A DNA stretch of 64,000 bases from Sphaerisporangium album (GTDB lineage Bacteria > Actinomycetota > Actinomycetes > Streptosporangiales > Streptosporangiaceae): positions 186,001-250,000 of the forward strand of contig NZ_QOIL01000003.1 of assembly GCF_003323745.1 (NCBI RefSeq). Direction: 5' to 3'. A program made the position numbers and the translations under genes. Below, in pieces: positions 24,938-39,681 of this stretch (positions within the stretch are counted from its first letter, which is position 1; each line of letters begins with the position of its first letter). Below the pieces are notes generated by a model, which searched no databases, was not told where the DNA came from, and worked only from the letters and a program-made list of their open reading frames with translations.

Positions 24938-25044
24938 CGTCCTCCGGTGTGGACGCGAGCCCAGGGCGCGTCTTGTCGGGAAGGGTGGGATCTGTAAGAG
25001 TCGTTCAAAGATCCTTGACCCTGTCGACGCACACCGGAGGACGG
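24938..25044. promoter_or_regulatory. Long-range 14-bp inverted repeat covering the SD of the next gene
   Basis: Arms 24938-24951 and 25031-25044 (ACACCGGAGGACGG) are perfect reverse complements 79 bases apart. The right arm contains GGAGG, the SD of the gene starting at GTG 25051. A transcript reading through from the glycosidase gene could hide that SD, while one starting inside the loop would leave it open. Confidence 0.55.
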
Positions 25045-25050
25045 AACCAG

Positions 25051-26247
25051 GTGATCGGGCTGACGTCGGGCGAGTTGGAGGAGATCCTGGCCACGGTGAC
25101 GGGCCAGGACATGGAGACCCCGGGCGAGGTGCTGTACGTCGCCCGCACGGACCAGCCGTCCTTCGTCGCCACCCTGCTGAGCGCCTGGGAGCGGGACGGG
25201 CGCGAGCTCGGCCCGGGCCTGGCCCACGACCTCGCCCGGTACCGCGGGCGGGTCGCCTTCTACCGGGACCTGCACACGCGGATCGCCGCGACCTTCGGCA
25301 ACCCGGTCACGTTCAAGGGCCTGGAGGTCGCCGCCCGCTACCCCGAGCCCCTCGTGCGCACGATGAACGACCTGGACTACTGGGTCCCCGACCAGGACCG
25401 GCTCTGGACCATCGTCTCCTGGCTGGTCGAGGACGGCTGGGGCGTCCACAGCGCCACGTTCCTGAAGTTCGAGGGCCGGCTGGAGTTCATGGTCAGCATG
25501 CGCCGCCTGCCCGACGACCCGTACGGGCTGCCGTACACCGTCGAGCTGAGCACCCTCGCCATGCTGGGCGACCGGGTCGGCATCCCCGCCCGCCGCACGC
25601 TGCCTCCCCCGTGCGAGGAGCCGGCGGCCAAGAACCTCGTCGCGCTGCTGCTGGAGCGGTTCGAGCAACCGTTCCGCGCCCGCGACCTGGTCGACGCCGC
25701 GCTGCAACTGGGCGACGCGCCCAAGAAGGTGCTGAACGCGTGCGCGCTTGCCGTCCACGAGGTGGGGCTGTGGCCCGAGTACGCCGAGCTGGCGTCGCTG
25801 CTGGAGGCCGCCTCGCTGGACGTGCCGCGGCTTCCCGGCGATCTGCGCACGCTCACCCGGATGGGCCGGCTGCGGCGCCGCGCGACGGCGGTGCGCGGCC
25901 TGCGGCGCCCGATCGACCTGGCGCTGCTGGAGCTGCAGAACCGCATGATGGCCGGCCGCTCCGGGACGCTCGGGCGGCACGCCTGGCGGCTCACCGAGCG
26001 CAAGATGGACAGCAAGAGCGCGCTGGACGCGGGCCTGGTGCTGTTCGCCCTGCCCGTCGCGGGCGACCACTACGCCGAGACCGCCACGTTGCGCGAGCGC
26101 GGCGGCACGCTGTGGGCCGACACCCCGGCCGGCGGGTTCGTGCTCGTCCACGGCGACGAGATCGACGAGTCGGCGCTGGAGGGCGCGGAGGCCACGGGCG
26201 GGCTGGCCGCCAAGGACGAGGACACCCGGGAAGGGGACGACACGTGA
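25051..26247 (+). CDS. Nucleotidyltransferase-family protein (NTP_transf_5-like)
   Basis: 398-aa protein resembling the uncharacterised nucleotidyltransferase family found in some RiPP clusters. Seen: FKGLEVAARYPEPLVRTMNDLDYWV near residues 90-115, a plausible K-G plus D-x-D metal-binding element (NDLDYW), and a long helical C-terminal half. Start GTG 25051 has SD GGAGG; the frame continues upstream but lacks an RBS. Its stop overlaps the M16 gene start (GTGA). As first gene before the mini-peptide array it may modify the peptides or their enzyme partner; this is inference. Confidence 0.65.
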   Translation: MIGLTSGELEEILATVTGQDMETPGEVLYVARTDQPSFVATLLSAWERDGRELGPGLAHDLARYRGRVAFYRDLHTRIAATFGNPVTFKGLEVAARYPEPLVRTMNDLDYWVPDQDRLWTIVSWLVEDGWGVHSATFLKFEGRLEFMVSMRRLPDDPYGLPYTVELSTLAMLGDRVGIPARRTLPPPCEEPAAKNLVALLLERFEQPFRARDLVDAALQLGDAPKKVLNACALAVHEVGLWPEYAELASLLEAASLDVPRLPGDLRTLTRMGRLRRRATAVRGLRRPIDLALLELQNRMMAGRSGTLGRHAWRLTERKMDSKSALDAGLVLFALPVAGDHYAETATLRERGGTLWADTPAGGFVLVHGDEIDESALEGAEATGGLAAKDEDTREGDDT

Positions 26248-27467
26248 GGGCTCCGGTGCGCGTGGCGCTCGGCAACGGCATCCCCGTCTGGGTCCTGAAC
26301 CGGCCGGGCGCGACCGCGACCACGGTGTCGCTCTGGCTGCTCACCGGCTCGCGCTACGAGCCGGAGGCCGTGGCGGGCGGCACCCATCTGCTGGAGCACA
26401 TCCTCATGCAGGCGCCCCTGCCCGGCGGCGGGCGCCCGATCGACCTGCTGGAGGGGCTCGGCGGCGAGGGCAACGCCATCACCAGCCGCGACCACCTCGT
26501 GCTGTACGCCCGGGTGCCCTCGCCCGAGGCGCCGGCCGCGCTGGAGATCCTCGCCCGCGCCATGGCCGAGCCGGACCTCGGGGAGGAGATCCTGGAGTCC
26601 GAGCGCAAGGTCGTGCAGGAGGAGCTGCGGCTGGCCGCCGGCGACCCGTTCGACATCGTGCACGACGTGTTCTACGACGTCGCGTTCGCGGGTCACCCGC
26701 TCGCCCGGCCGGTCGGCGGGACCGCCGAGAGCGTCGGCCGGGTGAACCTGGACGACCTGCGCGCCTTCCACTCCCGGTGGGTGCGCGCCTCGTCCGCCGC
26801 CGTGATCGTCTGCGGCGACCTCACCCCCGAGGCCGTGCTGAAGGTCCTGGAGTCCGGGCCGCTGACCGCGCTGCCGCCCGGCGGCGGCGAGCCCGACCAC
26901 GGCCTGCCGAGCGTCAGCGGCGGGCGGCGCAACCACCCGCTGAACAACGACTCGGCCGGGGTCGTGCTCGGCGGCCCGGCCGTGCCGTACGGCCACCGCC
27001 TGCTGCCGGCCTGGCAGGTGCTCATGGACCTGATCGGCGGGGCCAGCTCGGCGCTGCTGTTCGAGGAGATCAGGAACCGGCGGGGGCTGGCGTACGACAT
27101 GTGGGCGTTCACCAACGCCTACCGCGACACCGGCGTGTGGCGGGCCTTCATCGCCACCGCGCCCGAGCACGTCGGCGAGGTCGTGGAGACGGCCACCGCG
27201 CTGCTGACCGAGCGGGCCGAGCGGGGCTGGACGGCGGCCGAGGTCGAGCTGGCCACGCGGCGCACGGCGGGGCTGCTCCAGCTGGAGACCGAGCAGTCCT
27301 TCGAGGAGGCGCTGCTGTACGGCCGATATGGGCTCATTCCTGGGCACGACAACTGGACTCTGGCGGGTCAGATCGAGTCGATCCGGGCTGTCACCGCGGA
27401 GGACGTGCTGCTCAGCCTGAGGACGGCGCTGGACCCGATGGTGATCACGGTCGCCGGTATTGACTAA
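26244..27467 (+). CDS. M16-family zinc metallopeptidase
   Basis: 407-aa insulinase/pitrilysin-type peptidase, single M16 unit plus inactive half, no signal peptide. Zinc motif HxxEH is present in GGTHLLEHILMQ, with the downstream Glu in ESERKVVQEEL, and the C-terminal half shows EEIRNRRGLAYDMWAFTNAY, the R/Y pair that binds substrate C-termini. GTG 26244 overlaps the previous stop. Encoded 102 bases before the ten mini-ORFs, it is the natural candidate to trim or degrade those short basic peptides: M16 enzymes cleave small peptides in an enclosed chamber. Confidence 0.88.
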   Translation: MRAPVRVALGNGIPVWVLNRPGATATTVSLWLLTGSRYEPEAVAGGTHLLEHILMQAPLPGGGRPIDLLEGLGGEGNAITSRDHLVLYARVPSPEAPAALEILARAMAEPDLGEEILESERKVVQEELRLAAGDPFDIVHDVFYDVAFAGHPLARPVGGTAESVGRVNLDDLRAFHSRWVRASSAAVIVCGDLTPEAVLKVLESGPLTALPPGGGEPDHGLPSVSGGRRNHPLNNDSAGVVLGGPAVPYGHRLLPAWQVLMDLIGGASSALLFEEIRNRRGLAYDMWAFTNAYRDTGVWRAFIATAPEHVGEVVETATALLTERAERGWTAAEVELATRRTAGLLQLETEQSFEEALLYGRYGLIPGHDNWTLAGQIESIRAVTAEDVLLSLRTALDPMVITVAGID

Positions 27468-27511
27468 CCAGTGACACACCCGAAAACTCGGTAAATAGCG
27501 ATTGTTCGCTG

Positions 27512-27536
27512 GGAGTGCACCCGGTGTTCGCACTCC
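27512..27536 (+). promoter_or_regulatory. 7-bp hairpin before the mini-ORF array
   Basis: GGAGTGC (27512-27518) pairs with GCACTCC (27530-27536) across an 11-base loop, between the M16 stop and the SD GAAGGAGA of the first mini-ORF. It could be a processing site or weak attenuator; there is no T tract. Confidence 0.35.
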
Positions 27537-27569
27537 TCGGTAGCCGATCGATCGAACGAAGGAGAGCAC

Positions 27570-27629
27570 ATGGACCGTCACGCCAAGGCGATGCGCCGCC
27601 CCAAGGTGTCCAAGCCCGCCAAGGGCTGA
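27570..27629 (+). CDS. Mini-peptide 1 of the MDR-RRP array
   Basis: 19-residue basic peptide MDRHAKAMRRPKVSKPAKG. Best SD of the array, GAAGGAGA 7-8 bases before ATG, so ribosome entry is probably here. Stop is 2 bases before the GTG of peptide 2. Confidence 0.8.
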   Translation: MDRHAKAMRRPKVSKPAKG

Positions 27630-27631
27630 AC

Positions 27632-27691
27632 GTGGATCGCAAGGACAAGGCCGTACGCCGGCCCAGGATCCGCACGACGAGGAGGAGCTGA
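27632..27691 (+). CDS. Mini-peptide 2 of the MDR-RRP array
   Basis: 19 residues from a GTG start: VDRKDKAVRRPRIRTTRRS. It lacks the usual C-terminal KKG, having RRS instead. AAGGGC at the end of ORF 1 is its only SD-like sequence. Confidence 0.75.
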   Translation: MDRKDKAVRRPRIRTTRRS

Positions 27692-27693
27692 GC

Positions 27694-27753
27694 GTGGACC
27701 GCAAGTACCAAGCCCTACGCCGGCCCAAGATCCGCAACCCGAAGAAGGGATGA
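27694..27753 (+). CDS. Mini-peptide 3 of the MDR-RRP array
   Basis: 19 residues from GTG: VDRKYQALRRPKIRNPKKG. Upstream GAGGAGGAG at the end of ORF 2 is a strong SD. C-terminal six residues are identical to peptide 6. Confidence 0.77.
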   Translation: MDRKYQALRRPKIRNPKKG

Positions 27754-27755
27754 CC

Positions 27756-27815
27756 ATGGACCGCAGAGCTATGGCGGCGCGCCGCCCCAAGGTCTCAAAG
27801 CCGAAGAAGGGCTGA
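27756..27815 (+). CDS. Mini-peptide 4 of the MDR-RRP array
   Basis: 19 residues: MDRRAMAARRPKVSKPKKG. Starts two bases after the TGA of ORF 3; SD GAAGAAGGGA lies inside the last codons of ORF 3. Confidence 0.78.
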   Translation: MDRRAMAARRPKVSKPKKG

Positions 27816-27817
27816 CC

Positions 27818-27871
27818 ATGGACCGCAGAAGGTCGGCGTCACGTCGTCCGAGAATCTCCAGGTCGAAGTAG
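27818..27871 (+). CDS. Mini-peptide 5 of the MDR-RRP array
   Basis: 17 residues: MDRRRSASRRPRISRSK, ending at TAG. Short C-terminus without PKKG. Coupled to ORF 4 by TGACCATG. Confidence 0.75.
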   Translation: MDRRRSASRRPRISRSK

Positions 27872-27880
27872 GGACGAGCC

Positions 27881-27940
27881 ATGGACCGCAGGAAGCTCCA
27901 GGCACGTCGTCCCAAGATCCGCAACCCGAAGAAGGGCTGA
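27881..27940 (+). CDS. Mini-peptide 6 of the MDR-RRP array
   Basis: 19 residues: MDRRKLQARRPKIRNPKKG. The longest gap of the array (9 bases) precedes it and contains its own SD-like GTAGGGACGAG. Confidence 0.77.
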   Translation: MDRRKLQARRPKIRNPKKG

Positions 27941-27942
27941 CC

Positions 27943-28005
27943 ATGGACCGCATGCACCACGCGACGCGCCGCCCCAGGATCGCCACGCCGAAGAAGAAGG
28001 GGTGA
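27943..28005 (+). CDS. Mini-peptide 7 of the MDR-RRP array
   Basis: 20 residues, the longest: MDRMHHATRRPRIATPKKKG. Has a His pair and an extra Lys before the final Gly. Coupled by TGACCATG. Confidence 0.77.
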   Translation: MDRMHHATRRPRIATPKKKG

Positions 28006-28007
28006 CC

Positions 28008-28064
28008 ATGGACCGAGCCATGGTGACGCTGCGCCGTCCGCGCGTGCGTCCGAAGAAAGGCTGA
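28008..28064 (+). CDS. Mini-peptide 8 of the MDR-RRP array
   Basis: 18 residues: MDRAMVTLRRPRVRPKKG. An internal GTG-containing hydrophobic stretch replaces the usual basic residues 4-8. Coupled by TGACCATG. Confidence 0.75.
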   Translation: MDRAMVTLRRPRVRPKKG

Positions 28065-28066
28065 TC

Positions 28067-28123
28067 ATGGACCGCCGTAAGAAGACCTTACGCCGTCCGC
28101 GCGTCATCGCGACGAAGGACTGA
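28067..28123 (+). CDS. Mini-peptide 9 of the MDR-RRP array
   Basis: 18 residues: MDRRKKTLRRPRVIATKD. The only copy ending in an acidic residue. SD GAAGAAAGG in the end of ORF 8. Confidence 0.75.
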   Translation: MDRRKKTLRRPRVIATKD

Positions 28124-28126
28124 GAC

Positions 28127-28180
28127 ATGGACCGCAACCGCAGGGCCGCCCGCCGGCCGCGCGTGACCCGTTCCCGCTAG
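28127..28180 (+). CDS. Mini-peptide 10 of the MDR-RRP array
   Basis: 17 residues: MDRNRRAARRPRVTRSR, ending at TAG. Last copy; 52 bases separate it from the NDK-like gene, which has its own SD. Confidence 0.75.
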   Translation: MDRNRRAARRPRVTRSR

Positions 28181-28232
28181 TCCCGACAGAACCCCCGAAC
28201 AAACCGGTCGGTAACCTTCCAAGGAGTGATGG

Positions 28233-29099
28233 GTGACAGCGATCGATTGGCAGCGGACCGTTCTCGTTCTCCTACCACCCGACGCGCTGGAACGTCACCT
28301 GTGCTCCTCAGTCCTGGACCTGCTGGAACGTCACGCGTTCACTCCGGTGCGCTATGACGTTCTCTGGCACCGGCCGCCCAACCAGGACTCCTGGCAGGAA
28401 CGCAACATCTCTTCCGTATGGGAGGCCTACTTCTACCGGCAGGTCGACCTGGTGTTCGACCTCGGACCCACCCTCGCTCTGCTGGTAGAGGACGGGCAGG
28501 CGGACGTCTCGCCCGAACCGCCCCACAAACGGCTTCGCGCGCTCAAGGGCGCGAGCCACCCGGCGGAAGCCGCCCCCGGCACGATCCGCCGCGACTTCCG
28601 CGCGATCAACGTGATGCTGGACATCATCCACACCTCCGACAGCCCCGAGGACTCCGAGCTGGAGGCGTCGGTCTTCTTCGGCCCCGGCCTCGGACGGCCG
28701 CTCGACGGCGGCCAGACCGAGCTGCGCGAGCTCGTCGCCCTGCTGGAGGCGGGCATCCCGCGGGAGACCCGGGAGTACGACGACGTGCGCGCCGGGCTGC
28801 GCTCCAAGATCACCGCCGCCGTCTGGAACGACCTGACCGCCGAGGCCCGCAAGCTCGCCCCCGGGCTGGCCACCGACCCGCGTCCCGGCGCGGGCGCCGA
28901 GCTGGCCGCGCTGCTCCCCGGCGGCGCGTCGCACCCACTGGCCGAGCTGGTCTCCTGCGAGTTCCTGCCCGACCACCCGCAGGTGGACCTCAAGCGCGGG
29001 GCGGCGCAACTGGCGGTCTACGGGCTCACGCTGGACCGCTGGGAACACGCGGTCCTGCGGACGTCCATGACCTTCCCACCCCTACGCCGAGACTCCTGA
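28233..29099 (+). CDS. Divergent nucleoside-diphosphate-kinase-like protein
   Basis: 288-aa protein whose first ~150 residues follow the NDP-kinase fold: RTVLVLLPPDALERH at 8-22 (normally ...IKPDA), KGASHPAEAAPGTIRRDF at 105-122 and IIHTSDSPEDSELEASVFF at 131-149. The phospho-accepting His (H133) and the following S-D-S are kept, but the ATP-phosphate Lys of the KP motif is replaced by Pro and the Asn before His is lost, so ordinary NDP kinase activity is doubtful. A ~140-residue C-terminal extension is unlike NDK. GTG 28233 follows AAGGAG by six bases. It directly follows the mini-ORF array in the same direction and probably acts on it. Confidence 0.72.
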   Translation: MTAIDWQRTVLVLLPPDALERHLCSSVLDLLERHAFTPVRYDVLWHRPPNQDSWQERNISSVWEAYFYRQVDLVFDLGPTLALLVEDGQADVSPEPPHKRLRALKGASHPAEAAPGTIRRDFRAINVMLDIIHTSDSPEDSELEASVFFGPGLGRPLDGGQTELRELVALLEAGIPRETREYDDVRAGLRSKITAAVWNDLTAEARKLAPGLATDPRPGAGAELAALLPGGASHPLAELVSCEFLPDHPQVDLKRGAAQLAVYGLTLDRWEHAVLRTSMTFPPLRRDS

Positions 29100-29107
29100 C
29101 CCGAGCT

Positions 29108-29210
29108 GCCGTGCCGAAGGCGCGGCAATAAGCACTGGTCGGGGCGCGGCGGAAGAACACCGACTCTAAGGCGCCCCGAACCGCCGTGCCGGAGGCGCGG
29201 CAATAAGCAC
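29108..29210. repeat. 28-bp direct repeat at the 3' end of the first FemAB-like gene
   Basis: Copies at 29108-29135 and 29183-29210 differ at one base and are 75 bases apart. The second copy encodes the last residues (VLIAAPPAR) of the minus-strand gene; the first lies beyond its stop. It looks like a partial tandem duplication of the gene end. Confidence 0.75.
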
Positions 29211-30335
29211 AGTAGTGCTCGCGCTGTCGGCCACCACGTCGGCCAGTGCGGGGTCCGTCGCGCGTATCCAGCCCGGCGTCGGGACCGCCTCGCAGCCGCG
29301 CGACAGCTTGGCGCGCCAGGCCGCGTGGCCGTACTGGAGCCGGCGCGCCCCGGCCTCGGAGGCGACGCGCACGGGCTCGTAGAACACGGTCGCGAAGTAG
29401 GCGTGGCGCGCCTCGTGGCGGCCGTAGTCCATGCCCGTGCTCACGCAGACCCAGACGCCGCCGTGCCGGACGAAGAGGCTGTGCCCGACCAGCTCGCCGT
29501 CGCCCGGATCGTCCGGCGCGGCCAGCTCGGCGCGGAACAGCAGCGGGGTCGGCACGCCGGCGAACCCCTCCAGGCGGGCGCGCACCTTGTCCCGGTCGGC
29601 CGGGCGGCCGCCGTTGTACTTGGCCGAGTGCGCGCACTTCGACGTCACCACGTCCTCGGGGACGGAGGTCATGGGGACCGCGCGCACCCGTACGCCGGCG
29701 TCCGCGAGCGCGCGCAGCTCGCGGCGGACCTCGCCACGCCGCTTGCGCGGCAGGGCCGCGAGGTAGCCGTCGAACCCGTCCCCGGGCACCGGCAGCTCGC
29801 ACGAGTAGGACAGCTCGACACGGGAGAACCCCTGGCCGGCCAGCACGTCCTGGAGCGCCGCGGTGGACGGCGGCGTGTAGAGGCAGGCGACGGCGCGCAG
29901 GCCCCGCTCCCCCGCCCAGGCGACGATCGCCTCGACCAGCTCCGCCAGGGCGACGGGGTCGCCGGCCAGCGGGCCGAGCGGGTGGCACTCGTAGCCGGGC
30001 AGCATGAGCACGAGGCTGGGGTACCAGCTCTCGGGGGACGGGGGCCGCCACGTGGCGCGGGCCGCGCGCGTCTCCGGGCTCAGCGGCAGCTCGCCGGGGT
30101 CTCCCGACAGGATGTACGGCAGGTCGAAGATCTCGCCCTCGGGCACGCCGTGCAGGACGCTGCCGTACAGCGCGAGCCGCGCCTCACCGTCCTCGCGCAG
30201 TACGAAGGTGAACAGGTCGCCGGGGATACGGCCGCGCATGGCCTCCAGCCACTTCGCGGTCGCGAACAGCGGGGCGCCCGCCGTCAGCCGGTTCCACTCG
30301 TGGGGACGGCCGGGGACGGCCTGGAACTCGCGCAT
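29166..30335 (-). CDS. FemAB/GNAT-like acyl- or aminoacyltransferase 1
   Basis: 389-aa protein with the double-GNAT layout of FemAB/peptidogalycan-type proteins: FDGYLAALPRKRRGEVRRELRAL matches the conserved central helix, and GMDYGRHEARHAYFATVFYEPVRVASEAGARRLQYGHAA the C-terminal GNAT half. Characterised FemAB relatives transfer amino acids from tRNA to amines; others use acyl-CoA. Start ATG 30335 overlaps the stop of the upstream gene (TGATG), so both transferases are coupled. The operon converges on the NDK-like gene and diverges from the ThiS/PP-loop gene. Confidence 0.68.
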   Translation of the reverse strand: MREFQAVPGRPHEWNRLTAGAPLFATAKWLEAMRGRIPGDLFTFVLREDGEARLALYGSVLHGVPEGEIFDLPYILSGDPGELPLSPETRAARATWRPPSPESWYPSLVLMLPGYECHPLGPLAGDPVALAELVEAIVAWAGERGLRAVACLYTPPSTAALQDVLAGQGFSRVELSYSCELPVPGDGFDGYLAALPRKRRGEVRRELRALADAGVRVRAVPMTSVPEDVVTSKCAHSAKYNGGRPADRDKVRARLEGFAGVPTPLLFRAELAAPDDPGDGELVGHSLFVRHGGVWVCVSTGMDYGRHEARHAYFATVFYEPVRVASEAGARRLQYGHAAWRAKLSRGCEAVPTPGWIRATDPALADVVADSASTTVLIAAPPARRFGAP

Positions 30336-31351
30336 CAGACGTGCAGCAGGCAGGCGTCGAGGGGCAGCGGCGAGAGCCCGTGTTTGAGCTTGAAGGCGTG
30401 GTTGCTGCGCCCGCCCTCCAGGACGAGGCGGCCCTCCCGCAGCGCCTGCGCGACCGACTCGGTGTAGAGGATCGGGTAGGGGCTGTAGTTGGCCCGGGTG
30501 TCGTAGTCGACGCCGCAGGCCCACGCGTGGAAGCGGGTCTGGTCGCGTAAGCAGACCGCCACGCCGACGAGTTTGGCGTCCTCGCGCACCTCGACGAGGC
30601 AGGCGCGGTCGCCGAGCGCGCCGACGAAGTCGGCGAACAGGCCGGGCGGGTAGAACGCGCCGGTTCCGTGCCGGGCGGTGGTGGCGGCGCACAGCTCGGC
30701 GACCTCCATCAGGTCGCCCTCCCCGGTGTCCATGACGCGGATCGTCACGCCCGCCTCCAGCGCCCGGCGGCCGTTGCGGCGCAGGTTGGCCCTGCCCCTG
30801 GGCCGGGCCCCGGCGATGTAGTCGTCCGCGCTGGTCATGCCGCGCAGGTCGACGGTGAAGCGGTACTCGATGTGCTCGGCGGGGAAGCCCTCGGCGATGA
30901 GGGCGTCGCGCAGCGGCGAGGTGTGGGGGACGTTGATGAAGCCGTACCAGTCGGCGCCGAGCTCGGCGGCGAGCGCGCGCATCTCCCCGATGACGGCGCT
31001 GGTGACGGCGGCGGTGTGCGGCGCGCCGGGCAGCCAGGCGTCGTAGCAGTGCCAGACGTGGCTGAGCAGGCCGCGGTCGCCGGCGGAGACGGGGTAGCGG
31101 GGGCGCAGATGGCCGATGGGGTCGACCCCGCGCAGCAGTGAGACGGGCAGCACGGCGACGGCCCGCCCGTGCTCGCGGACGACGAAATAGAAGAACGCCT
31201 CGACGCCGGTCAGCGGAAAGCGCTCGTAGGCACGCAAATACCGCTGGTGATAAAACACCGGCGCGCCTGCCCTCGATACAACATCATCCCATTCACCCTC
31301 GTCAACAGCATCGACGGACTTATGTACTTCGACGGTCAATGACGCGCTCAC
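30335..31351 (-). CDS. FemAB/GNAT-like acyl- or aminoacyltransferase 2
   Basis: 338-aa paralogue of the preceding protein. Diagnostic pieces: YHQRYLRAYERFPL, then ARPRGRANLRRNGRRALEAG (central helix) and the C-terminal YCDTRANYSPYPILY-like segment GVDYDTRANYSPYPILYTES, typical of the peptidogalycan biosynthesis/recognition family. GTG 31351 with only a run of G upstream as SD. Two such transferases side by side suggest sequential additions to one acceptor, possibly a peptide; that is inference. Confidence 0.68.
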   Translation of the reverse strand: MSASLTVEVHKSVDAVDEGEWDDVVSRAGAPVFYHQRYLRAYERFPLTGVEAFFYFVVREHGRAVAVLPVSLLRGVDPIGHLRPRYPVSAGDRGLLSHVWHCYDAWLPGAPHTAAVTSAVIGEMRALAAELGADWYGFINVPHTSPLRDALIAEGFPAEHIEYRFTVDLRGMTSADDYIAGARPRGRANLRRNGRRALEAGVTIRVMDTGEGDLMEVAELCAATTARHGTGAFYPPGLFADFVGALGDRACLVEVREDAKLVGVAVCLRDQTRFHAWACGVDYDTRANYSPYPILYTESVAQALREGRLVLEGGRSNHAFKLKHGLSPLPLDACLLHV

Positions 31352-31457: not shown

Positions 31458-32663
31458 GTGGCCCACGTCGTCTTCCATGACAAAGTCGGCGGCTCGGAGA
31501 CTCTGAGCGCCACCCCCGGACGGCCGCTGACTGAGGTCCTGACGGCGTACGGCATTCCCGTAAACGCCGTGCTTACGACCCAGAACGGGAAAATCGTTCC
31601 CGAGGAGACCACGACCGTCGGGGCAGACGACGTGATCGAGATCCGGCAGGTCCGCCACTACGACCTGGACGTCACCCGCAAGCCTCAACGTACCGTTTAC
31701 GGCACCCCCGATCCCGTTTACGTGAAAACGGTCATGTTCGACGTAAACGGACAACTGGAGCATCGGTCCGAGCAGTTCGACCGCGAGGGCTTCGTCCGGT
31801 ACGTCGAGGAGACTTTCGTCCAGAGCATCCTCAGCCACTCGGTGCTCCGGCCCGGCGAATCGGTCGTCATCGGCCTTTCCGGGGGACGGGACAGCGTGGC
31901 GTTCGTCAAGCTTCTGGAGCGCGTCGGGGACCGCCTGCCCAAGGTCCCCATGACCTCGGTCACGATCACCGGCCTGCCCGACTGGGACGAGCCGGCGACG
32001 TTCGAGGCCGCCCGCGCCTCGGCGGCCGGGCTCGGCATCGACCAGGTCATCGTCACCGCCCAGGACATCGAGCGCGTCTTCAAGATGCGCCGCCCGTTCG
32101 TCGAGGCCATGAACAGCGTCGTCTCCGGCGAGCACCGGCACTACAACATGGTCGTCGGCCACCACGTGCTGCGCCGCATGCTGGAGAACTACGCCCAGGA
32201 GCACGGCGCGAGCACGGTGGCGTTCGGCTTCAACGGCGACGACCTCGTGGCCAGCATGGTCACCTGGATCACCAGCGGCTACCGCATGGGCGGCATCCCG
32301 GTCCGGGAGTTCGGCGGCCTGCGCTACATCTTCCCGCTCTACCGCATCACCAAGAAGGAGCTGATGCTCTACCTGGAGCTCGTCGCCCCCGAGCTCAACC
32401 GGCAGGGCACGCCGGGCCGCTTCACCACCGGCCCCCAGGACCGCTCGATCGCCTACGCGCTGGCCGACCACCTGTACGGCCTGTGGCCCGGCATCGACTA
32501 CTACCTGTTCGAGTCGTTCGCCAACATGCAGCGCTACATGTTCCCGTTCGTGGAGCAGAAGTGCCGCATGTGCGAAGGGGTCTACATCCTCCAGGAAGGA
32601 GTACAGAACCCGCCGGACCTCTGCGACGTGTGCGAGTTCTTCGGCAAGATGGGCTTCTCATGA
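31458..32663 (+). CDS. Fusion of ThiS/MoaD-like domain and TtuA/CTU1-type PP-loop ATPase
   Basis: 401 aa. Residues 1-68 form a beta-grasp, ubiquitin-like domain (PLTEVLTAYGIPVNAVLTTQNG; VGADDVIEIRQV). Residues ~90-330 are an adenylating PP-loop ATPase with SGGRDS at 141-146 and FGFNGDD, the counterpart of GHNLDD. C-terminal C369-x2-C372 and C389-x2-C392 look like a zinc or Fe-S knuckle. In sulfur-inserting TtuA/TtcA proteins a central CxxC binds [4Fe-4S]; here that place reads VVGHHVLRR, without Cys. The carrier is fused N-terminally and lacks a free Gly-Gly end. So the reaction is probably ATP-dependent activation, but thiolation as in TtuA is uncertain. GTG start with GAGGGAG upstream; ATGA overlap with next gene. 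Confidence 0.75.
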   Translation: MAHVVFHDKVGGSETLSATPGRPLTEVLTAYGIPVNAVLTTQNGKIVPEETTTVGADDVIEIRQVRHYDLDVTRKPQRTVYGTPDPVYVKTVMFDVNGQLEHRSEQFDREGFVRYVEETFVQSILSHSVLRPGESVVIGLSGGRDSVAFVKLLERVGDRLPKVPMTSVTITGLPDWDEPATFEAARASAAGLGIDQVIVTAQDIERVFKMRRPFVEAMNSVVSGEHRHYNMVVGHHVLRRMLENYAQEHGASTVAFGFNGDDLVASMVTWITSGYRMGGIPVREFGGLRYIFPLYRITKKELMLYLELVAPELNRQGTPGRFTTGPQDRSIAYALADHLYGLWPGIDYYLFESFANMQRYMFPFVEQKCRMCEGVYILQEGVQNPPDLCDVCEFFGKMGFS

Positions 32664-34567
32664 CGCGGTGGTACGCCGAGTACTTCACCGCCGACTACTG
32701 GAGCTTCGCCCGCCACGAGTACACCGCCGCACGCACGGCCGGTGAGGTCGCCTACCTGGTCAAGACGCTGGAGGAGCACGCGCCCGGGCGGCGCGTGCTC
32801 GACCTCGGCTGCGGAATCGGCCGGCACGCCGTCGCGCTGGCCGAGCACGGCTTCGAGGTCGTCGGCGTCGACGTCGGCCGGTGGGCGCTCGACCGGGCCG
32901 AGGAGTCCGCGCGGCGGGCGGGCGTCCCGCTGACGGTGGTGCTCGCCGACCTGTTCGGACGGGCCGACCTGCCGGAGGCGGACGCGGCGGTCTGCCTGCA
33001 GAACTTCGGCTGGGGCACCGACGACGAGCAGCGCCGGTTCCTGCGCCGGGTGCGCGAGCGGCTCGTCCCCGGCGGGGTGCTCGTCCTGGACCACTCCAAC
33101 GTGACCGGGATCCTGACCAGGTACCAGCCCACGGCGCGGTTCGAGGCCGAGGGCACCGTCTTCGACTTCTTCCGCTCCTATGACCCGGTGACCGGCCGCA
33201 ACCAGGGCGAGCTGCGCGTCACCCACCCGGACGGCACCGTCGCGCGCCTGCTGGACGACGTGCGGCTCTACCAGCCGCCCGAGGTCGCGGCGATGCTCCG
33301 CGACGCGGGCTACGAGATCGTCCGCGTGGACGCCGACTTCGCCGCCGGGTCCGAGGTCCGGATCGACACCCGGTATGTCCAGTTCGTCGCCCGTGCGGCC
33401 GCCAGGCCCGAGCCCGCCGTCCTCGACTACACCCGCGTCACGCCCGCGCCGGGCGACCTCGACCTGCGCTGGGCCCCCGACGAGATCGAGTTCGTCCGCG
33501 ACGTGATCGACGAGGTCTGGGCCGAGGTCGCCCCGCACGGACGCCCCACGCCCGCCGCCGGCGACATCCCCGACCACCGGCCCGATTCCGCGCCCGCCGA
33601 CCACTCGTACCACAGGCCTAACTCGGCACCGGCCGAGCACCCAGACCACCGGCCCGCCTCAGTGCTCGCCGACCTCGCCCGGCACCTCGCGGTCACCGAC
33701 CCGTACGGCGGCGTGCGTGCGGCACCCGTACTGAGCGCGCACTTCGGCGCCGATATCACCCCGGAACGGGTGATCGCGGGCGCGGGCACCACCACCCTGT
33801 TGCACGCCCTTGGCGCGCTCGCCGCGCCCGGGACGCTGCTGTGCACGCCGTACTCCCACCCGGACCTGCCCGGCTGGGCGGCCCGGCTCGGCGCGACACT
33901 GCGCCCGTTCGACCCGGCCGCCGACGACGCGCCCGAAACGATCGCCCGGCTGCGGCCCGCGCTCGTGCTGGTCGAGCGTCCCGGCGTCCTAGGCGAGCTT
34001 CTGCCCCCGGACCGCGTCCGCGCCCTCGCCGAGGCGGCCAGGGACGTCGGCGGGCTGCTGGTGCTGGACGAGGCGTGCGCGACGTACGCCGGGCCGGAGG
34101 CCAGCGCCGTGCCGCTCACCTCCGAGGCCGAGGGGCTCGTCGTGCTGCGCGGCCTGTCCAAGGGGTACTGCTGCGGCGGCCTGCGCATCGGATTCGCCAT
34201 CTGCTCGGCCGGCACCGGGGCCACGCTGCGCCGGGCCGCGCCGCCGCTAGCCGCCTCCGCACTCCCGCTGGAGGTGGCGCTGCGCCTCCTCGAACGCGGC
34301 GACGTCCTCCAGCCGCTGCGCACGGCCCTCGCCACGGCCAAACCCGAGCTGGTCGCAGGCCTGCGCCGACTCGGCCTCACCGTGGCACCGGGACACCCGA
34401 CGCTGCCGTGGGTCACGGTCGAGGGCCACGTCCCGCCCGGCCTGCTCGGCAAACCGGTACGCCCGATCTTCGGCGCCCCGCGCACCCGGATCAGCGTGCC
34501 GCTGTCGGCCGCGCGCCGGGACGCGTTCCGCGCGCTGGTGGAGCGGGCGGACGCGGCGGGCGGATGA
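32660..34567 (+). CDS. Methyltransferase-aminotransferase fusion protein
   Basis: 635 aa, two enzymes in one chain. N-terminal SAM methyltransferase with motif I LDLGCGIGRHA at 47-57 and motif post-I VVGVDVG; ends near residue 245. A Pro/His/Asp-rich linker with repeated DHRPxSAPA-like units (about 290-330) leads to a fold-type I PLP aminotransferase: VIAGAGTTTLLHAL, VLDEACATYAG (PLP Asp) and the PLP lysine K501 in LRGLSKGYCCGGLRIG. It resembles histidinol-phosphate-type aminotransferases. ATG 32660 overlaps the previous stop. Substrates unknown; a small-molecule or peptide-terminal amino acid is likely from context. Confidence 0.8.
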   Translation: MTRWYAEYFTADYWSFARHEYTAARTAGEVAYLVKTLEEHAPGRRVLDLGCGIGRHAVALAEHGFEVVGVDVGRWALDRAEESARRAGVPLTVVLADLFGRADLPEADAAVCLQNFGWGTDDEQRRFLRRVRERLVPGGVLVLDHSNVTGILTRYQPTARFEAEGTVFDFFRSYDPVTGRNQGELRVTHPDGTVARLLDDVRLYQPPEVAAMLRDAGYEIVRVDADFAAGSEVRIDTRYVQFVARAAARPEPAVLDYTRVTPAPGDLDLRWAPDEIEFVRDVIDEVWAEVAPHGRPTPAAGDIPDHRPDSAPADHSYHRPNSAPAEHPDHRPASVLADLARHLAVTDPYGGVRAAPVLSAHFGADITPERVIAGAGTTTLLHALGALAAPGTLLCTPYSHPDLPGWAARLGATLRPFDPAADDAPETIARLRPALVLVERPGVLGELLPPDRVRALAEAARDVGGLLVLDEACATYAGPEASAVPLTSEAEGLVVLRGLSKGYCCGGLRIGFAICSAGTGATLRRAAPPLAASALPLEVALRLLERGDVLQPLRTALATAKPELVAGLRRLGLTVAPGHPTLPWVTVEGHVPPGLLGKPVRPIFGAPRTRISVPLSAARRDAFRALVERADAAGG

Positions 34568-34671
34568 ATCTCGTGGTGGTGGCCGGTGGGCGCCGTGCGG
34601 GCCGACGAGCGCCGCTGAGCTCGGTGAAGGCCGGGTGAGCATCGTTGCGGGCCGGTGAGCGCGGTGAGCCG

Positions 34672-36930
34672 GTGAGCGTCCGGACCGTCGTCGAGCGGAT
34701 GCACGCGTCCTTCGACACGGCGGCCGCCATGGCCGACGTCGCCGCGGTGTGCGGGTTCGACCGCTACCAGGCGTCGTCCGGGGTCATGGCGGCGGCCGAG
34801 TACGTCGCCCGCCGGGCTGAGCAGGCGGGTCTCGCGGACGTCCGGCTACTGGAGTTCCCCGCCGACGGAAGCAGCCGCTGGTGGAGCTTCCGCGCCCCCA
34901 CTTCGTGGACGCCGCTGCGCGCCGAGCTGACCGCAGTAGGGCCGCCGTCGTCCGGAGCCGCCGGGAACGGCTCCGTGGAGGTTCGCCCGGACGAGCCGTT
35001 CGCCCCCGCCCTGTCCGAGCCGTTCACCGCCTCCCTGGCCGAGCCGTTCACCGCCTTGGCCGAGCCGTTCGCCTACTCCCTGGGTGAGCCGCCCGCCCCC
35101 TCCCTGAACGCGCCGTTCACCGTCGCCGCGTACCCGGACGAGCCGTTCACGCTCGCCGCGCACTCCGCGGCCACCGGCCCGGACGGGGTCGAGGTGCCCG
35201 TGGTCCGCGCCGGTTCCGGGGGCGCGTCGCCGCGCGGGGCGCTCGTCGTGCACGACGACCCGGCGATCCCGCTCGCCCGCGCGCTGGCCGAGGCCGAGCG
35301 GGAGGGCGCGCTGGGACTCGTCACCGACCAGGTCTCCGGGGACGGCCAGGTGGGGCGGGTCGAGCTGCGCGGCGGCACATCGCTGCTCGCGTTCAGCGTC
35401 CGCCCGGGACGGCTGGCCGAGCTGCTCGCCCGAGGACGCGCCCGCGTCACCGTCACCGCGCACGACACCGCGCCCATGCCCCTGGTCACCGGGCTGATCC
35501 CCGGCGAGGAGGCCACCGAGACGCTGCTGTACGCGCACCTGTGCCACCCGCGCCCGAGCGCCAACGACAACGCCACGGGAGTGGCCGCCCTCCTCGGCAT
35601 CGCCCGGGTGCTGGCGAGCGCCGGCGGCGACGCGCGGAGCGGCGCCGGCGCCCGCCCGCGCCGGGGCGTCCGGTTCGTCTGGGGCCCCGAGTTCACCGGC
35701 ATGGCCGCCTACCTGCACGATGTCGCGGAGTCCGTCCCGATGGCCGCGGTCAACGTGGACATGGCGGGCGAGGACCAGCGGCTGTGCGGTGGGCCGCTCA
35801 TCGTCGAGCGCGCGCCCGACCACCTGCCCGGGTTCGTCAGCGCGCTCGCCGAGCACGTCGTCACCCTGCTCCCCCAGGCCGCACGTTCCTACACCGGGGC
35901 CGTGGCGTGCGACACCTGGGCCTGGCGCGCCACCCCCTTCGTCGGCGCGTCCGACCACAGCCTGCTGGCCGACCGCTCGATCGGCTGCCCCGCCGTCACG
36001 CTCGGGCACTGGCCGGACCGGTTCAACCACAGCTCGGCCGACACCCTCGACAAGGTGGACCCGGAGGAACTGCGCCGCATCGCGACGGTCGCCGGAGCCA
36101 CGATCGCCGTCCTGAGCACCGCCACCCCGGCCGACCACCCCGAACTGGAGGCCATTGCCATCCACTGGGCGGCCGCCCGATTGCTGGAGTGCCTGCCCAG
36201 CGGCCGCGCCGTACCCGACATTTACGAAATGTCCGGTAGGGAAGACGGCCACGACGCGAGCGGGACGGAGCGTACGGCGGGGCGTGAGGCTCGGCTTGGA
36301 GAAAAGAATGGGGCACGGGCCGGGTCCGCGCTGAACGCGCGTCCGCTGGAGTTGTTGTGGCATCGTACGGACGTGGCTGTCGCGGCGGTGGGGTGGATCG
36401 ACGAACTTTGCGGGGACCGCGGCGGGTCCGCGTCGCGGCGGTGGGTCGAGGATCTCGCCGCCCACGTCGCCACCCTGCTCCCGGGGGACCACCCCCGACA
36501 TCGGTCCCCGTCCTCGCCGCCGGGCGAGCGCGCGGGCGGTGGGATTTGCGTGCCGCGTCGCACCTGGGCTGGGCCGTTCAACCTGCGGGGGCTGGTCGAG
36601 GCGGCCTCGCCTGGCGGGCGGGAGTGGATCGGGGGGCGACTCGCCGAGGAGCGGGCGCGCGGGTACGCGCTCATGCTGGCGCTGGCCCACGCCGTGGACG
36701 GGGTGCGCGACCGCGAGGCCGTGGCCCGGTACGCCGGGCTCGCCACGGGCCTTCCCGTCGAGGACGGGTTCGCCGGACGTTTCCTCGACATTCTCGTGGA
36801 ATCGGGGTGGGCCGCCGAAACGGCCACCGCCGGCGAAGAGAAAGCGGGGGCGGCCGGGCGGGGTGTGGGCGGGGTAACGGCGGGATCGGCCGCCGGGGAT
36901 GGAGGCACCGGTGCGCCGGCTGATGCGTGA
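34672..36930 (+). CDS. M28-like zinc aminopeptidase with repeat insertion
   Basis: About 752 aa. A DUF4910/M28-type peptidase core is seen in HLCHPRPSANDNATGVAAL (metal His/Asp), WGPEFTG (Glu), NVDMAGED (Asp) and FVGASDHSLLADRSIGCPA; metal ligands appear complete. Residues about 107-165 are an odd insert of repeated (E/A)PFT-A-L-x units. The last ~230 residues are an alpha-helical domain with low-complexity ends. No signal peptide, so cytosolic. Start is uncertain among several GTGs; GTG 34672 is used. Its 3' end overlaps the MFS start. Peptidase plus exporter following modifying enzymes is a layout typical of RiPP clusters. Confidence 0.72.
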   Translation: MSVRTVVERMHASFDTAAAMADVAAVCGFDRYQASSGVMAAAEYVARRAEQAGLADVRLLEFPADGSSRWWSFRAPTSWTPLRAELTAVGPPSSGAAGNGSVEVRPDEPFAPALSEPFTASLAEPFTALAEPFAYSLGEPPAPSLNAPFTVAAYPDEPFTLAAHSAATGPDGVEVPVVRAGSGGASPRGALVVHDDPAIPLARALAEAEREGALGLVTDQVSGDGQVGRVELRGGTSLLAFSVRPGRLAELLARGRARVTVTAHDTAPMPLVTGLIPGEEATETLLYAHLCHPRPSANDNATGVAALLGIARVLASAGGDARSGAGARPRRGVRFVWGPEFTGMAAYLHDVAESVPMAAVNVDMAGEDQRLCGGPLIVERAPDHLPGFVSALAEHVVTLLPQAARSYTGAVACDTWAWRATPFVGASDHSLLADRSIGCPAVTLGHWPDRFNHSSADTLDKVDPEELRRIATVAGATIAVLSTATPADHPELEAIAIHWAAARLLECLPSGRAVPDIYEMSGREDGHDASGTERTAGREARLGEKNGARAGSALNARPLELLWHRTDVAVAAVGWIDELCGDRGGSASRRWVEDLAAHVATLLPGDHPRHRSPSSPPGERAGGGICVPRRTWAGPFNLRGLVEAASPGGREWIGGRLAEERARGYALMLALAHAVDGVRDREAVARYAGLATGLPVEDGFAGRFLDILVESGWAAETATAGEEKAGAAGRGVGGVTAGSAAGDGGTGAPADA

Positions 36931-38167
36931 CCCCAGGTTCGTCCTGCTCTTCGCCGGCCAGGCGATCAACATGTTCGGCGACCGCGCGCTGCTCGTCGTG
37001 CTGGCCATCTGGGTCAAGGAGCTGACCGGGTCGGACGCGCTGGCCGGCGTCACGTTCGTGCTGCTGTCGCTGCCGTCGCTGCTCGCGCCGCTCACCGGCC
37101 TGCTGGTCGACCGGTTCCCCCGGCGCCTCACGCTGATCGTCAACGACCTGGCCGCGACCGTCCTCGTGCTGTGCCTGCTGCTCGTGCGGGACGCGGGCGA
37201 CCTGTGGATCGTGTTCGCCGTCACGCTCGGCTACGGCATCTCGAACCAGATCTTCAACGCCGCGCGCGGCGGCCTCGTCCACTCCATGGTGCCGAAGGAG
37301 CTGCTCGGCGACGCGAACGGCCTGTTCGGCTCGGTCGGGCAGGGCCTGCGCATCATCGGCCCGCTGCTCGGCACCGCCATCTTCGTGGCGGTCGGGCTCG
37401 GCGGGGTCGCGATACTCGACGCGGCCACGTTCGTCGTGTCGGCGATCATCCTCCTGATGCTCAGGACCACCCCCGACCTGGTGCGCGCCCGCGAGAAGGC
37501 GCCGGGGCGGCTGACGGGCGACCTCACGGCGGGCGTCCGGCACATCCTGCGCGACCGCGAGCTGCGAGGTGCGGTCCTCGCGGTCGGCCTGGCGCTCGGC
37601 GCGGGCGGGCTGCTCAACACGGCGATGTTCGCCGCCGTGGACGAGGGCCTGCACCGGTCGACGGCGTTCATCGGCGTCGTCGCCAGCTTCCAGGGCGCGG
37701 GCTCGATCGCGGGCGGCGTGGCCACCGGAACCCTGATCAGGCGGTACGGCGAGGCGCGCGCCGCCGCCATCGGGTTCGCGTTCGGCGCGGTCGGCATGGC
37801 CCTGGTCATCCCGACCAGCGTCGTCGGCATGTGCGTGGGCGCGGTGCTGGTCGGCGTCTCGATCCCGGTCTTCCTGGTCGCGACCACCACGCTCGTCCAG
37901 CGGCGCACGGAGGGCGAGCTCCAGGGGCGGGCGCTGACGGCGATGGAGGCGCTGATCGACATCCCCTTCATCGCGTCCCTGGGGCTCGGGTCGCTGATCA
38001 TCCAGTTCGTACCGTTCCGCTTCATCTACGCCTTCAGCGCGGCGGCGTTCATGAGCGTGGCGGTGTACGTGCTGATCGTCCGCCGTCGCGGACCGGACGC
38101 GGACGCCGAGGTGCCGGCCGCCACGACGCCGTCGCAACCCGCGGCGTCAGAGCCCACCGCCTCCTGA
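36911..38167 (+). CDS. MFS transporter (putative product exporter)
   Basis: 418-aa integral membrane protein with 12 predicted segments; N-terminal LMRDPRFVLLFAGQAINMFGDRALLV and the loop-2/3 motif GLLVDRFPRR are typical of MFS_3 drug/siderophore exporters. GTG 36911 preferred because GGAGG sits five bases upstream; ATG 36899 is the alternative. It overlaps the peptidase gene, so it is cotranscribed with it and is the likely export route of this cluster. Confidence 0.85.
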   Translation: MRRLMRDPRFVLLFAGQAINMFGDRALLVVLAIWVKELTGSDALAGVTFVLLSLPSLLAPLTGLLVDRFPRRLTLIVNDLAATVLVLCLLLVRDAGDLWIVFAVTLGYGISNQIFNAARGGLVHSMVPKELLGDANGLFGSVGQGLRIIGPLLGTAIFVAVGLGGVAILDAATFVVSAIILLMLRTTPDLVRAREKAPGRLTGDLTAGVRHILRDRELRGAVLAVGLALGAGGLLNTAMFAAVDEGLHRSTAFIGVVASFQGAGSIAGGVATGTLIRRYGEARAAAIGFAFGAVGMALVIPTSVVGMCVGAVLVGVSIPVFLVATTTLVQRRTEGELQGRALTAMEALIDIPFIASLGLGSLIIQFVPFRFIYAFSAAAFMSVAVYVLIVRRRGPDADAEVPAATTPSQPAASEPTAS

Positions 38168-38197
38168 AGCTGCGAGGGCCGGCGCTGAACGCGCGGG

Positions 38198-39481
38198 TCA
38201 ACGCCAGGTCGCCAGCGGGACGAGCATCTCGTCCGGGGTGAGCGCGCCGTGCTCGAAGGCCATGCCGGGCACGGGGAGCGGGAAACGGGGTGAGGTGGCG
38301 ATGGCGACGACCTCGCCGAGCCGCTCCCCCACGGCGGCGGGCAGACCGGTGAGCCCGGCACCCGGTAGGCCGGTGGACCCTGGACCTGGCGGGCCGGCGA
38401 GCCCGAGGCCGGGCAGGTCGGCCGCCGGGACCACCAGGGCGTGGCCGTCCATGGCCTCGCCGAGCCGTTCCAGCGCCTCGGCCGCGCGGCCCTCGCGCGG
38501 ATACAGCCAGCGGGTCCGTCCCGCTCCCCCGGCCGGGAGCCGGCACAGCTCGGGGGTGTCGACGCGGGCCCAGGCGAGCTCCAGCCCGGCGTCGGGCTCG
38601 CAGGGCACCTGGCCGTGGTCGGAGTGGGCGAGGACGGTCCACCCGCGCCGGGCCCAGGACAGCGCGTGCCGTTCCAGCGCCTCGACCGCGCGGGCCGCGC
38701 GGTCGTCGTAGCCGTGCCGGTGGACGTGGTCGTCCAGGTTGACGTACGTCCAGAGCAGGAGGGGACGGTCTTCGCGGTGGGCGGCCAGGACGTCCTCGAC
38801 GTCGCGGGCCACGGCCGCGACCATGCGCTCGGGGTCGGCGGCCTCGGCGGCCAGCGTCCGGGGGTCGGGTCTCGGGCCGCGTGAGGCGCCGGCGAGCAGC
38901 GCGGACGCCCAGGGGCTGCCGATCGCGCCGATCTCCCTCGCCCTGGCCACGGGCCGCGCGCGGGGGGCGGCGGCCTGGAAGACGGTGGGCATCGCCGCGA
39001 GAACGCCGGGCGAGACGGAACTCCCGGCGGCGACGGGGGTGCGGGGGCCGTCGCCCGTGCCGTGGTCATGCGGGGCGCGGGGACCATCGGGCCCGTCGTG
39101 GGGGTCGGCGAGGAGGGTGCCGAAGATGACGTCGGCGAGGGCGTCGTCGTCGGGCGAGCGGTAGGCGGCGCCGACGACGAGGTGCTCGGTGAGAGGGGCT
39201 CCGGTGACGGCGGTCATCCAGGCCGTCGCGGAGGTGCTCGGGAACGTGGAGGTCAGGCATTCGAGGGCGGCGTCGCGCCAGCCCGCGCGGGCGGCACGCC
39301 ACGACAGGCCGTCGACCGCGAGTACCACGATTCCCCGGGCGGCATGGTCGAGCTCGGCCAGAATCCGCCCGGGTATCGCACACAACGATTGCCTCGGATG
39401 CGGAGTGATGCCACCCGCAGCCGCAATCGCGCATTCATTGATCAGTGCGATATCGTCCAGCAAAGGAGTCGATCTCCGCAC
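38198..39481 (-). CDS. Alkaline-phosphatase-superfamily phosphodiesterase / nucleotide pyrophosphatase
   Basis: 427 aa, no signal peptide. Metal and nucleophile motifs of the Phosphodiest family: VVLAVDGLSW (Asp), TSTFPSTSATAWMTAVTG (Thr nucleophile), TYVNLDDHVHRHG (Asp/His) and VLAHSDHGQVP (DHG). Start read as GTG 39481; no strong SD, so initiation may be a little downstream. It follows the 47-residue peptide gene by 56 bases in the same direction and probably shares its promoter. It could remove phosphate or nucleotide groups from an intermediate. Confidence 0.78.
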   Translation of the reverse strand: MRRSTPLLDDIALINECAIAAAGGITPHPRQSLCAIPGRILAELDHAARGIVVLAVDGLSWRAARAGWRDAALECLTSTFPSTSATAWMTAVTGAPLTEHLVVGAAYRSPDDDALADVIFGTLLADPHDGPDGPRAPHDHGTGDGPRTPVAAGSSVSPGVLAAMPTVFQAAAPRARPVARAREIGAIGSPWASALLAGASRGPRPDPRTLAAEAADPERMVAAVARDVEDVLAAHREDRPLLLWTYVNLDDHVHRHGYDDRAARAVEALERHALSWARRGWTVLAHSDHGQVPCEPDAGLELAWARVDTPELCRLPAGGAGRTRWLYPREGRAAEALERLGEAMDGHALVVPAADLPGLGLAGPPGPGSTGLPGAGLTGLPAAVGERLGEVVAIATSPRFPLPVPGMAFEHGALTPDEMLVPLATWR

Positions 39482-39537: not shown

Positions 39538-39681
39538 TCACATATTCGGGACGCAGTCGGTGCAGGTCGTGCGGAACTTGATCGCCAGCTCCGCCTGGCG
39601 TGCGGCCAGCATGTTCTGCACCAATTCCGGCGTGAGCAGAACCGGGGTTTCGGTCGTCTTCTGCACGAGCTCGGGCGTCAT
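39538..39681 (-). CDS. 47-residue candidate precursor peptide
   Basis: Small ORF starting MTPELVQKTTETPVLL, preceded by a near-perfect SD (AGGAGGT, five bases before ATG 39681) and a consensus promoter. The word TPELVQ occurs twice (residues 2-7 and 17-22); the second is followed by a helical stretch (NMLAARQAELAIKFR), and the C-terminus is TTCTDCVPNM with two Cys and three Thr. Leader-like helix plus Cys/Thr-rich tail is the usual layout of a RiPP precursor. No family recognised. Located between the putative modification genes and the MFS at 40.5 kb. Confidence 0.72.
   Translation of the reverse strand: MTPELVQKTTETPVLLTPELVQNMLAARQAELAIKFRTTCTDCVPNM

Follow-up and report, generated by a model that had tools for sequence, protein, structure and literature searches.

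The window analysed here, a stretch of 64,000 nucleotides of DNA from an actinobacterium of soil type, contains ten tandem mini-ORFs encoding short cationic peptides, and these mini-ORFs are peptide genes under purifying selection at the protein level. On balance we lean towards the view that they are an accessory set of precursors within a RiPP-like biosynthetic cluster and that the encoded peptides are cut by an M16 metallopeptidase encoded next to them. A longer peptide of the KFRT type, encoded further along the cluster, is probably the main precursor.

Layout of the mini-ORF array

Ten complete mini-ORFs of 17-20 codons follow one another on the plus strand, each encoding an MDR-x5-RRP peptide in which D2, R3, R9, R10, P11, K/R12 and V/I13 are present in 10/10 copies. 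The initial annotation had described ten consecutive complete frames with these residues, including basic and aliphatic ones at positions 12 and 13, and the description was confirmed throughout.

27570 to 28180, plus strand: mini-ORF array, ten copies of MDR-x5-RRP-[KR][VI], 17-20 aa
27570 to 27629, plus strand: first mini-ORF copy, K12 type (RRPK)
28127 to 28180, plus strand: last mini-ORF copy, RRPRV type

The mini-ORFs start at 27570, 27632, 27694, 27756, 27818, 27881, 27943, 28008, 28067 and 28127, with ATG in eight cases and GTG in two, and encode peptides of 19, 19, 19, 19, 17, 19, 20, 18, 18 and 17 aa in that order. Their net charge (K/R minus D/E) is +6 to +8, their unmodified masses are 2.11-2.40 kDa, and each contains one or two prolines. 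The stop-to-start gap is 2-3 nt at eight of the nine junctions and 9 nt at the other, and Tandem Repeats Finder reported a 62-nt period. Conserved and variable positions alternate along the mini-ORFs with no clear leader/core split, and no Pfam/NCBIfam model matched the one copy of the ten that was long enough to be scanned. Shine-Dalgarno matches of at least 4 nt were found at 3/10 mini-ORF starts, compared with 16% of 550 ATGs in the window; because such matches are few, translation of most mini-ORFs probably depends on stop/start coupling.

A strict scan, requiring MDR-x5-RRP and a stop within 26 codons, found ten matches in the window versus three in total in 100 simulated 64 kb first-order Markov sequences. 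In the organism's own genome, a single-copy DNA pattern gave 17 matches (the ten of the array and seven scattered ones), with 11 in the reversed control, and whole-genome scanning with this pattern revealed no second array.

Genes surrounding the array

The array is embedded in a group of genes with enzyme-like products, listed here in order.

25039 to 26247, plus strand: NTP_transf_5-like nucleotidyltransferase, sub-threshold Pfam match, NDLD motif
26241 to 27467, plus strand: M16 metallopeptidase (PF00675/PF05193), HLLEH motif
28233 to 29099, plus strand: NDK-domain protein, C-terminally extended, His-containing stretch IIHTSDSPE
29166 to 30332, minus strand: FemAB-like protein, second copy, aminoacyltransferase candidate
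30335 to 31351, minus strand: FemAB-like / Acetyltransf_6 protein
31458 to 32663, plus strand: PP-loop ATPase, ThiS-like stretch at the N-terminus, CxxC pairs at the C-terminus
32657 to 34567, plus strand: SAM methyltransferase (MTase) fused to a CobD/HisC-like PLP enzyme, Lys of SKGY kept
34645 to 36930, plus strand: M28/DUF4910 aminopeptidase-like protein
36899 to 38167, plus strand: MFS transporter
38198 to 39481, minus strand: PF01663 phosphodiesterase/nucleotide pyrophosphatase-like protein
39538 to 39681, minus strand: second precursor-like peptide (47 aa and a stop codon), ...ELAIKFRTTCTDCVPNM

The initial annotation had placed nucleotidyltransferase-like, M16 and NDK-like genes in one direction around the array. 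All three indeed lie on the plus strand and have Pfam matches: E 4e-27 and 6e-22 for M16, E 1e-13 for the NDK domain, and a sub-threshold match for the nucleotidyltransferase (27.2 bits, cut-off 31.2; E 3.5e-6). The HLLEH motif of M16 is kept in 8/8 aligned rows, and, where the alignments cover them, the DLD or DVD of the nucleotidyltransferase, the NDK His, the PLP Lys and the M28 motif stretches are kept as well; we take the roles of these residues to be those known from their families. The name ThiS-like is based on inspection of the sequence and on a weak 1ryj match. Beyond fold and motif, the enzyme functions are putative. No PqqD-like RRE domain was among the Pfam hits (E up to 0.001) of nine neighbours and the phosphodiesterase, a search that distant RREs could escape.

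The M28 gene contains tandem repeats of 24/45/69 nt at 34992-35122 (plus strand), coding repeated EPF-type segments. An ORF at 38026-39087 was rejected as a gene, as it overlaps the phosphodiesterase gene in another frame. Further along, at 42133-45037 (plus strand), genes for a HalD/BesD-like halogenase, an argininosuccinate synthase and a formyltransferase stand in a row. This set is 88-96% identical in, and adjoins the cluster in, two of the four relatives checked (13.5 kb). Since it lies beside the cluster in only those two, it was rejected as part of the cluster and is probably a separate small cluster.

Conservation and structure of the array in relatives

The NDK-like protein was searched against 297 genomes of the same family, with matches in 158. 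A near-full-length homologue was present in 12 genomes besides the organism's own (E 3.6e-48 or better); the remaining matches, among those listed, covered the NDK domain or little more. When the regions around the 12 homologues were compared with the window, eight were found to share its order of NTP_transf_5-like, M16, NDK-like, ThiS/PP-loop, MTase/PLP, M28 and MFS genes, with mini-ORFs in the M16-NDK gap in 8/8 and both FemAB-like genes in place in seven; the eighth, L040, has one FemAB-like gene, displaced. In L041, L042 and L043, NDK-like and FemAB-like homologues occur with no PP-loop match by tblastn, and the neighbours in L041 and L043 look by eye like candidate phosphonate-type genes (PEP mutase, alcohol dehydrogenase).

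Together with the window and a locus of Nonomuraea soli (L047, from the scan for PP-loop relatives), the eight regions make up ten array loci, which are related and not independent. Loci that had received two labels were counted once (L033=L046, L037=L044, L038=L045, L040=L048, L053=L032, L062=L047, L064=L051, L065=L050 and L058=L049). The array lies between the M16 and NDK-like genes in 10/10. Copy numbers per locus are 10, 8, 6, 6, 5, 5, 3, 3, 2 and 2, giving 50 mini-ORFs; L035 and L036 are entered with five each including a shortened copy, or four each by a stricter filter. Among the 46 mini-ORFs in register, R3, R10 and P11 are invariant, R9 is present in 45 and D2 in 44. The four out of register comprise the shortened copies of L035 and L036, one per locus (MALQARRP...), and two others that contain a six-residue spacer.

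A strict tandem pattern was found in 7/341 family genomes, always at the array locus, with one match in the reversed control. It misses three known array loci (L038/L045, L040/L048 and L047), where the copies have diverged or lie far apart, and it could likewise overlook diverged arrays elsewhere.

The first and last copies differ consistently. Lys occupies position 12 in the first copy of 10/10 arrays and in the last copy of 0/10 (Fisher p 1e-5, uncorrected for shared descent), and R[VI] occupies positions 12-13 in the last copy of 9/10. The two-copy arrays (L037/L044 and L047) contain one copy of each type. Taken together, these patterns suggest that the array may derive from two distinct ancestral peptides and that the middle copies expanded later.

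Purifying selection on the mini-ORF peptides

Changes in the mini-ORFs between sister species are mostly synonymous. In six orthologous mini-ORFs of L032 and L033, eight synonymous changes and one non-synonymous change were counted (pN/pS 0.04); in five of L035 and L036, the shortened one included, there were eight and three (pN/pS 0.14). The dN/dS values for the two pairs are 0.04 and 0.13, and pooling both pairs gave a Fisher p of ~6e-7, the numbers of sites being approximate. Of the four amino-acid changes, three lie within X5. In the seven loci that have at least three copies in register, paralogues show pN/pS values of 0.76-1.07 in X5 and 0.11-0.29 at the frame positions; we do not count the latter range as evidence, since conservation was the criterion by which those positions had been chosen. 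The mini-ORFs are therefore peptide genes selected at the protein level, as the initial annotation had argued. Two of the three refuting conditions that it named were put to the test and do not hold: dN/dS across copies, determined here between sister species, is not near 1, and the array is conserved at ten loci.

A second peptide and the constant part of the cluster

The peptide gene at 39538-39681, upstream of the phosphodiesterase gene, was overlooked in the initial annotation. The C-terminal end of its 47-aa product is KFRTTCTDCVPNM, and no Pfam/NCBIfam model matched it when it was scanned without its last residue. Its wider occurrence emerged from a comparison of 23 loci, all with a ThiS/PP-loop relative and located via the PP-loop or the NDK-like gene. 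Ten of these loci have the array and 13 do not. PP-loop relatives without an array occur in Streptomyces, in Streptacidiphilus, in Streptantibioticus and in other members of the window's family. L055, a locus from a Legionella sp. MAG, and the Geobacillus stearothermophilus plasmid pGS18 also carry such relatives, the plasmid-encoded one at 34% identity. Overall, PP-loop relatives were found in 15/341 genomes of the family, 5/394 of the class (the organism's own included) and 4/394 of the Streptomyces-type family.

A scan for the KFRT/RFRT motif found such a peptide in every array locus, the window included. The array-less loci except L055 have a short ORF ending in KFRT[TN]C[TS]DCVPN[FYL], RFRTCCADPRAS[RK] or, on pGS18, RFRTCATDPITSW, so that the peptide is present in 22/23 loci. 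Its gene adjoins the PP-loop or the phosphodiesterase gene wherever its position was examined, and its last residue is Y, M, F, L, R, K or W, never Thr. Two chance peptides from a loose filter, one in L035 (CGDVS end) and one in L036 (CGDSF end), were left out.

Two loci have additional features. On the conjugative plasmid pGS18 (L059, 8139-16532), the RFRTCATDPITSW peptide gene is accompanied by genes for the PP-loop enzyme, an MTase, a phosphorylase-family protein and an MFS transporter. In the MAG locus L054 (1585-2910), a KFRTNCSDCVPNL peptide gene adjoins a gene for an ATP-grasp protein whose C-terminal domain is of the L-amino acid ligase type.

An M16 homologue adjoins the array in 10/10 array loci and is found in 0/13 array-less loci, absence meaning no match at E 1e-5 within the 14-25 kb examined per locus. 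Among the genes compared, only the presence of M16 tracks the array exactly, a linkage that may partly reflect shared descent, since the array loci are related. MTase/PLP, M28 and phosphodiesterase homologues occur in 10/13 array-less loci (20/23 overall for each) and FemAB-like homologues in 9/13 (19/23 overall). The constant part of the cluster is thus the PP-loop gene and the KFRT/RFRT peptide, to which the array and M16 are an add-on of one branch.

These results divide the proposal of the initial annotation, which had seen in the mini-ORFs a multi-copy precursor family matured by the neighbouring enzymes. Selected peptide genes in a biosynthetic-type cluster were indeed found. Maturation by the neighbours in general is not supported in that form, as 13 of the 23 loci have no array and ten of those 13 keep MTase/PLP, M28 and phosphodiesterase. 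Given that the same enzymes occur in array-less loci and that the KFRT/RFRT peptide occurs in 22/23, the majority of the neighbouring enzymes probably belong to the KFRT-type pathway.

Possible roles of the mini-ORF peptides

If the mini-ORFs are accessory precursors, the array would be translated from a polycistronic message by stop/start coupling. D2-R3 and R9-R10-P11 could serve as a recognition and cleavage frame within which M16 would cut the peptides, and the variable X5 and C-terminal parts would then give rise to a small cationic library. The remaining enzymes would primarily build the product from the KFRTTCTDCVPN-type peptide of the same cluster. Conservation and protein-level selection point indirectly to ribosomally encoded precursor genes, as a RiPP would have, and modifying and processing enzymes are clustered with them, M16 alone being array-specific. 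Since neither the mini-ORF nor the KFRT peptide matches a Pfam/NCBIfam model, the RiPP label has no external support. The missing leader/core split, the lack of an RRE hit and the weak Shine-Dalgarno sequences at 7/10 starts may also count against accessory precursors.

Other explanations have to be weighed against the accessory precursor set. The mini-ORF peptides might be joined to, or co-matured with, the KFRT-type product, perhaps through the FemAB-like enzymes, and so act as a cationic carrier or co-substrate within one final molecule. Both kinds of peptide gene share one cluster in 10/10 array loci, and two FemAB-like homologues are present in 9/10 (one in L048), but a homologue of the second FemAB-like gene is also found in the array-less loci L039 and L054, and we consider this explanation unlikely. 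Joining is the boldest reading. It could be extended to a two-precursor pathway in which a KFRT-C-DC-type product is combined with an M16-trimmed MDR-RRP library, so that the array diversifies the product combinatorially, which we find rather doubtful. In such a pathway the KFRT-C-DC part would be shared and made by the ThiS/PP-loop, MTase/PLP, FemAB, NDK and phosphodiesterase proteins, whereas the MDR-RRP library would be strain-specific and its M16 peptidase dedicated to it. It is improbable that the peptides work without modification, as small cationic antimicrobials or signals that the cluster only exports or trims: a net charge of +6 to +8 at 17-20 aa and an MFS transporter within the cluster would suit this, whereas no signal peptide or double-Gly leader was seen by eye, the mini-ORFs are surrounded by modification genes, and with one or two prolines each the products are not proline-rich peptides.

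The position of the array directly upstream of the NDK-like gene and its tight stop/start spacing would fit a regulatory leader that sets translation or attenuation of that gene, with the peptide sequence of minor importance. Against such a leader, for which we see little chance, stand the protein-level purifying selection between sister species, a copy number varying from 2 to 10, the lack of any Rfam match at gathering scores in the whole window and the lack of a terminator-like site within 27300-28400. A neutral DNA repeat family, open by chance, would explain the 62-nt period and is hardly credible: residues are kept while codons change (five different Arg codons at R10 across the mini-ORFs), orthologue dN/dS is low, and no tandem match was found elsewhere in 341 genomes. 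The accessory precursor set is thus favoured over unmodified peptides and a regulatory leader, and a neutral repeat is contradicted.

Two further ideas were rejected. For an anti-phage role, PADLOC matched one of nine cluster proteins, the MTase half of the MTase/PLP protein to mads_2, which we read as a shared domain. For a viral origin, 111 pattern stretches were found in viral_contigs, of which none was confirmed as a PP-loop relative, and phages gave none (E up to 1e-10); around the single viral match of the tandem pattern (300 bp), reading all three frames of the strand concerned gave no MDR-type mini-ORF.

Significance

The gene cluster around the KFRT-type peptide is apparently undescribed; among the listed open-licence PMC articles, judged by title and abstract start, no description of MDR-RRP or KFRT-type peptides was found. 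If our interpretation is true, it represents a family of peptide natural-product clusters that combines unusual enzymes with precursors lacking any match among Pfam/NCBIfam models, and that we find both in Actinomycetota and on a plasmid of Bacillota. One branch would have acquired an expandable array of genes for 17-20 residues, under the usual limits of gene calling. The array yields concrete precursor sequences and masses to search for, and offers a straightforward genetic way to find out whether such an array makes a product more diverse.

Comparison with known systems

Daptide clusters, as described in PMC10036551, share with the window cluster several similar short ORFs per cluster (more than ten in some Bacillota clusters), a PLP aminotransferase and a SAM methyltransferase. 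Daptide precursors have a C-terminal Thr, whereas no peptide of the window cluster or its relatives ends in Thr (0/50 mini-ORFs at the ten array loci), and the RRE fusion and alcohol-dehydrogenase-type decarboxylase of daptides are not among the Pfam hits of the window cluster. The MTase half of the window's MTase/PLP protein matches the NCBIfam model daptide_MTase with E 9e-15 and 54.8 bits, the cut-off being 175.

PqqF of the PQQ pathway is an M16 protease in RiPP maturation; the window precursors are presumably unlike PqqA. M16 leader proteases also include PttP1/PttP2 of class III lanthipeptides, and the likeness lies in an HxxEH-bearing M16 peptidase encoded next to short ribosomal peptides. 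PttP1/PttP2 form a two-chain complex (PMC10885120), whereas the window encodes one M16 chain, and no lanthipeptide synthetase is among the window's Pfam hits. For nucleotidyltransferase-like proteins, PMC9266682 links one to hexose addition on a phosphorylated lasso peptide.

With the tRNA thiolases TtuA/TtuI (6scy, 3vrh), the PP-loop domain and the C-terminal Cys pairs of the window enzyme align. The CxxC of TtuA/TtuI is an Fe-S site. The CxxC of TtuI (6scy) is absent from the window enzyme and its relatives in 16/16 aligned rows, so thiolation by the PP-loop enzyme is not supported and sulfur insertion of the tRNA thiolase kind was lowered as a candidate. The window enzyme also differs in the ThiS-like stretch before its PP-loop domain.

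Microcin C systems have very short precursor genes, an MFS transporter, nucleotide-handling enzymes and PLP and MTase domains, together with a ThiF-like adenylyltransferase, MccB, and a peptide that ends in Asn. The window cluster shares the tiny precursor genes, the MFS transporter, the nucleotide-handling enzymes and the PLP and MTase domains, but it has no ThiF (MccB-like) Pfam hit and its peptides have no terminal Asn. The likeness to microcin C-type peptide-nucleotides (cf. PMC9239234) is an analogy of parts only.
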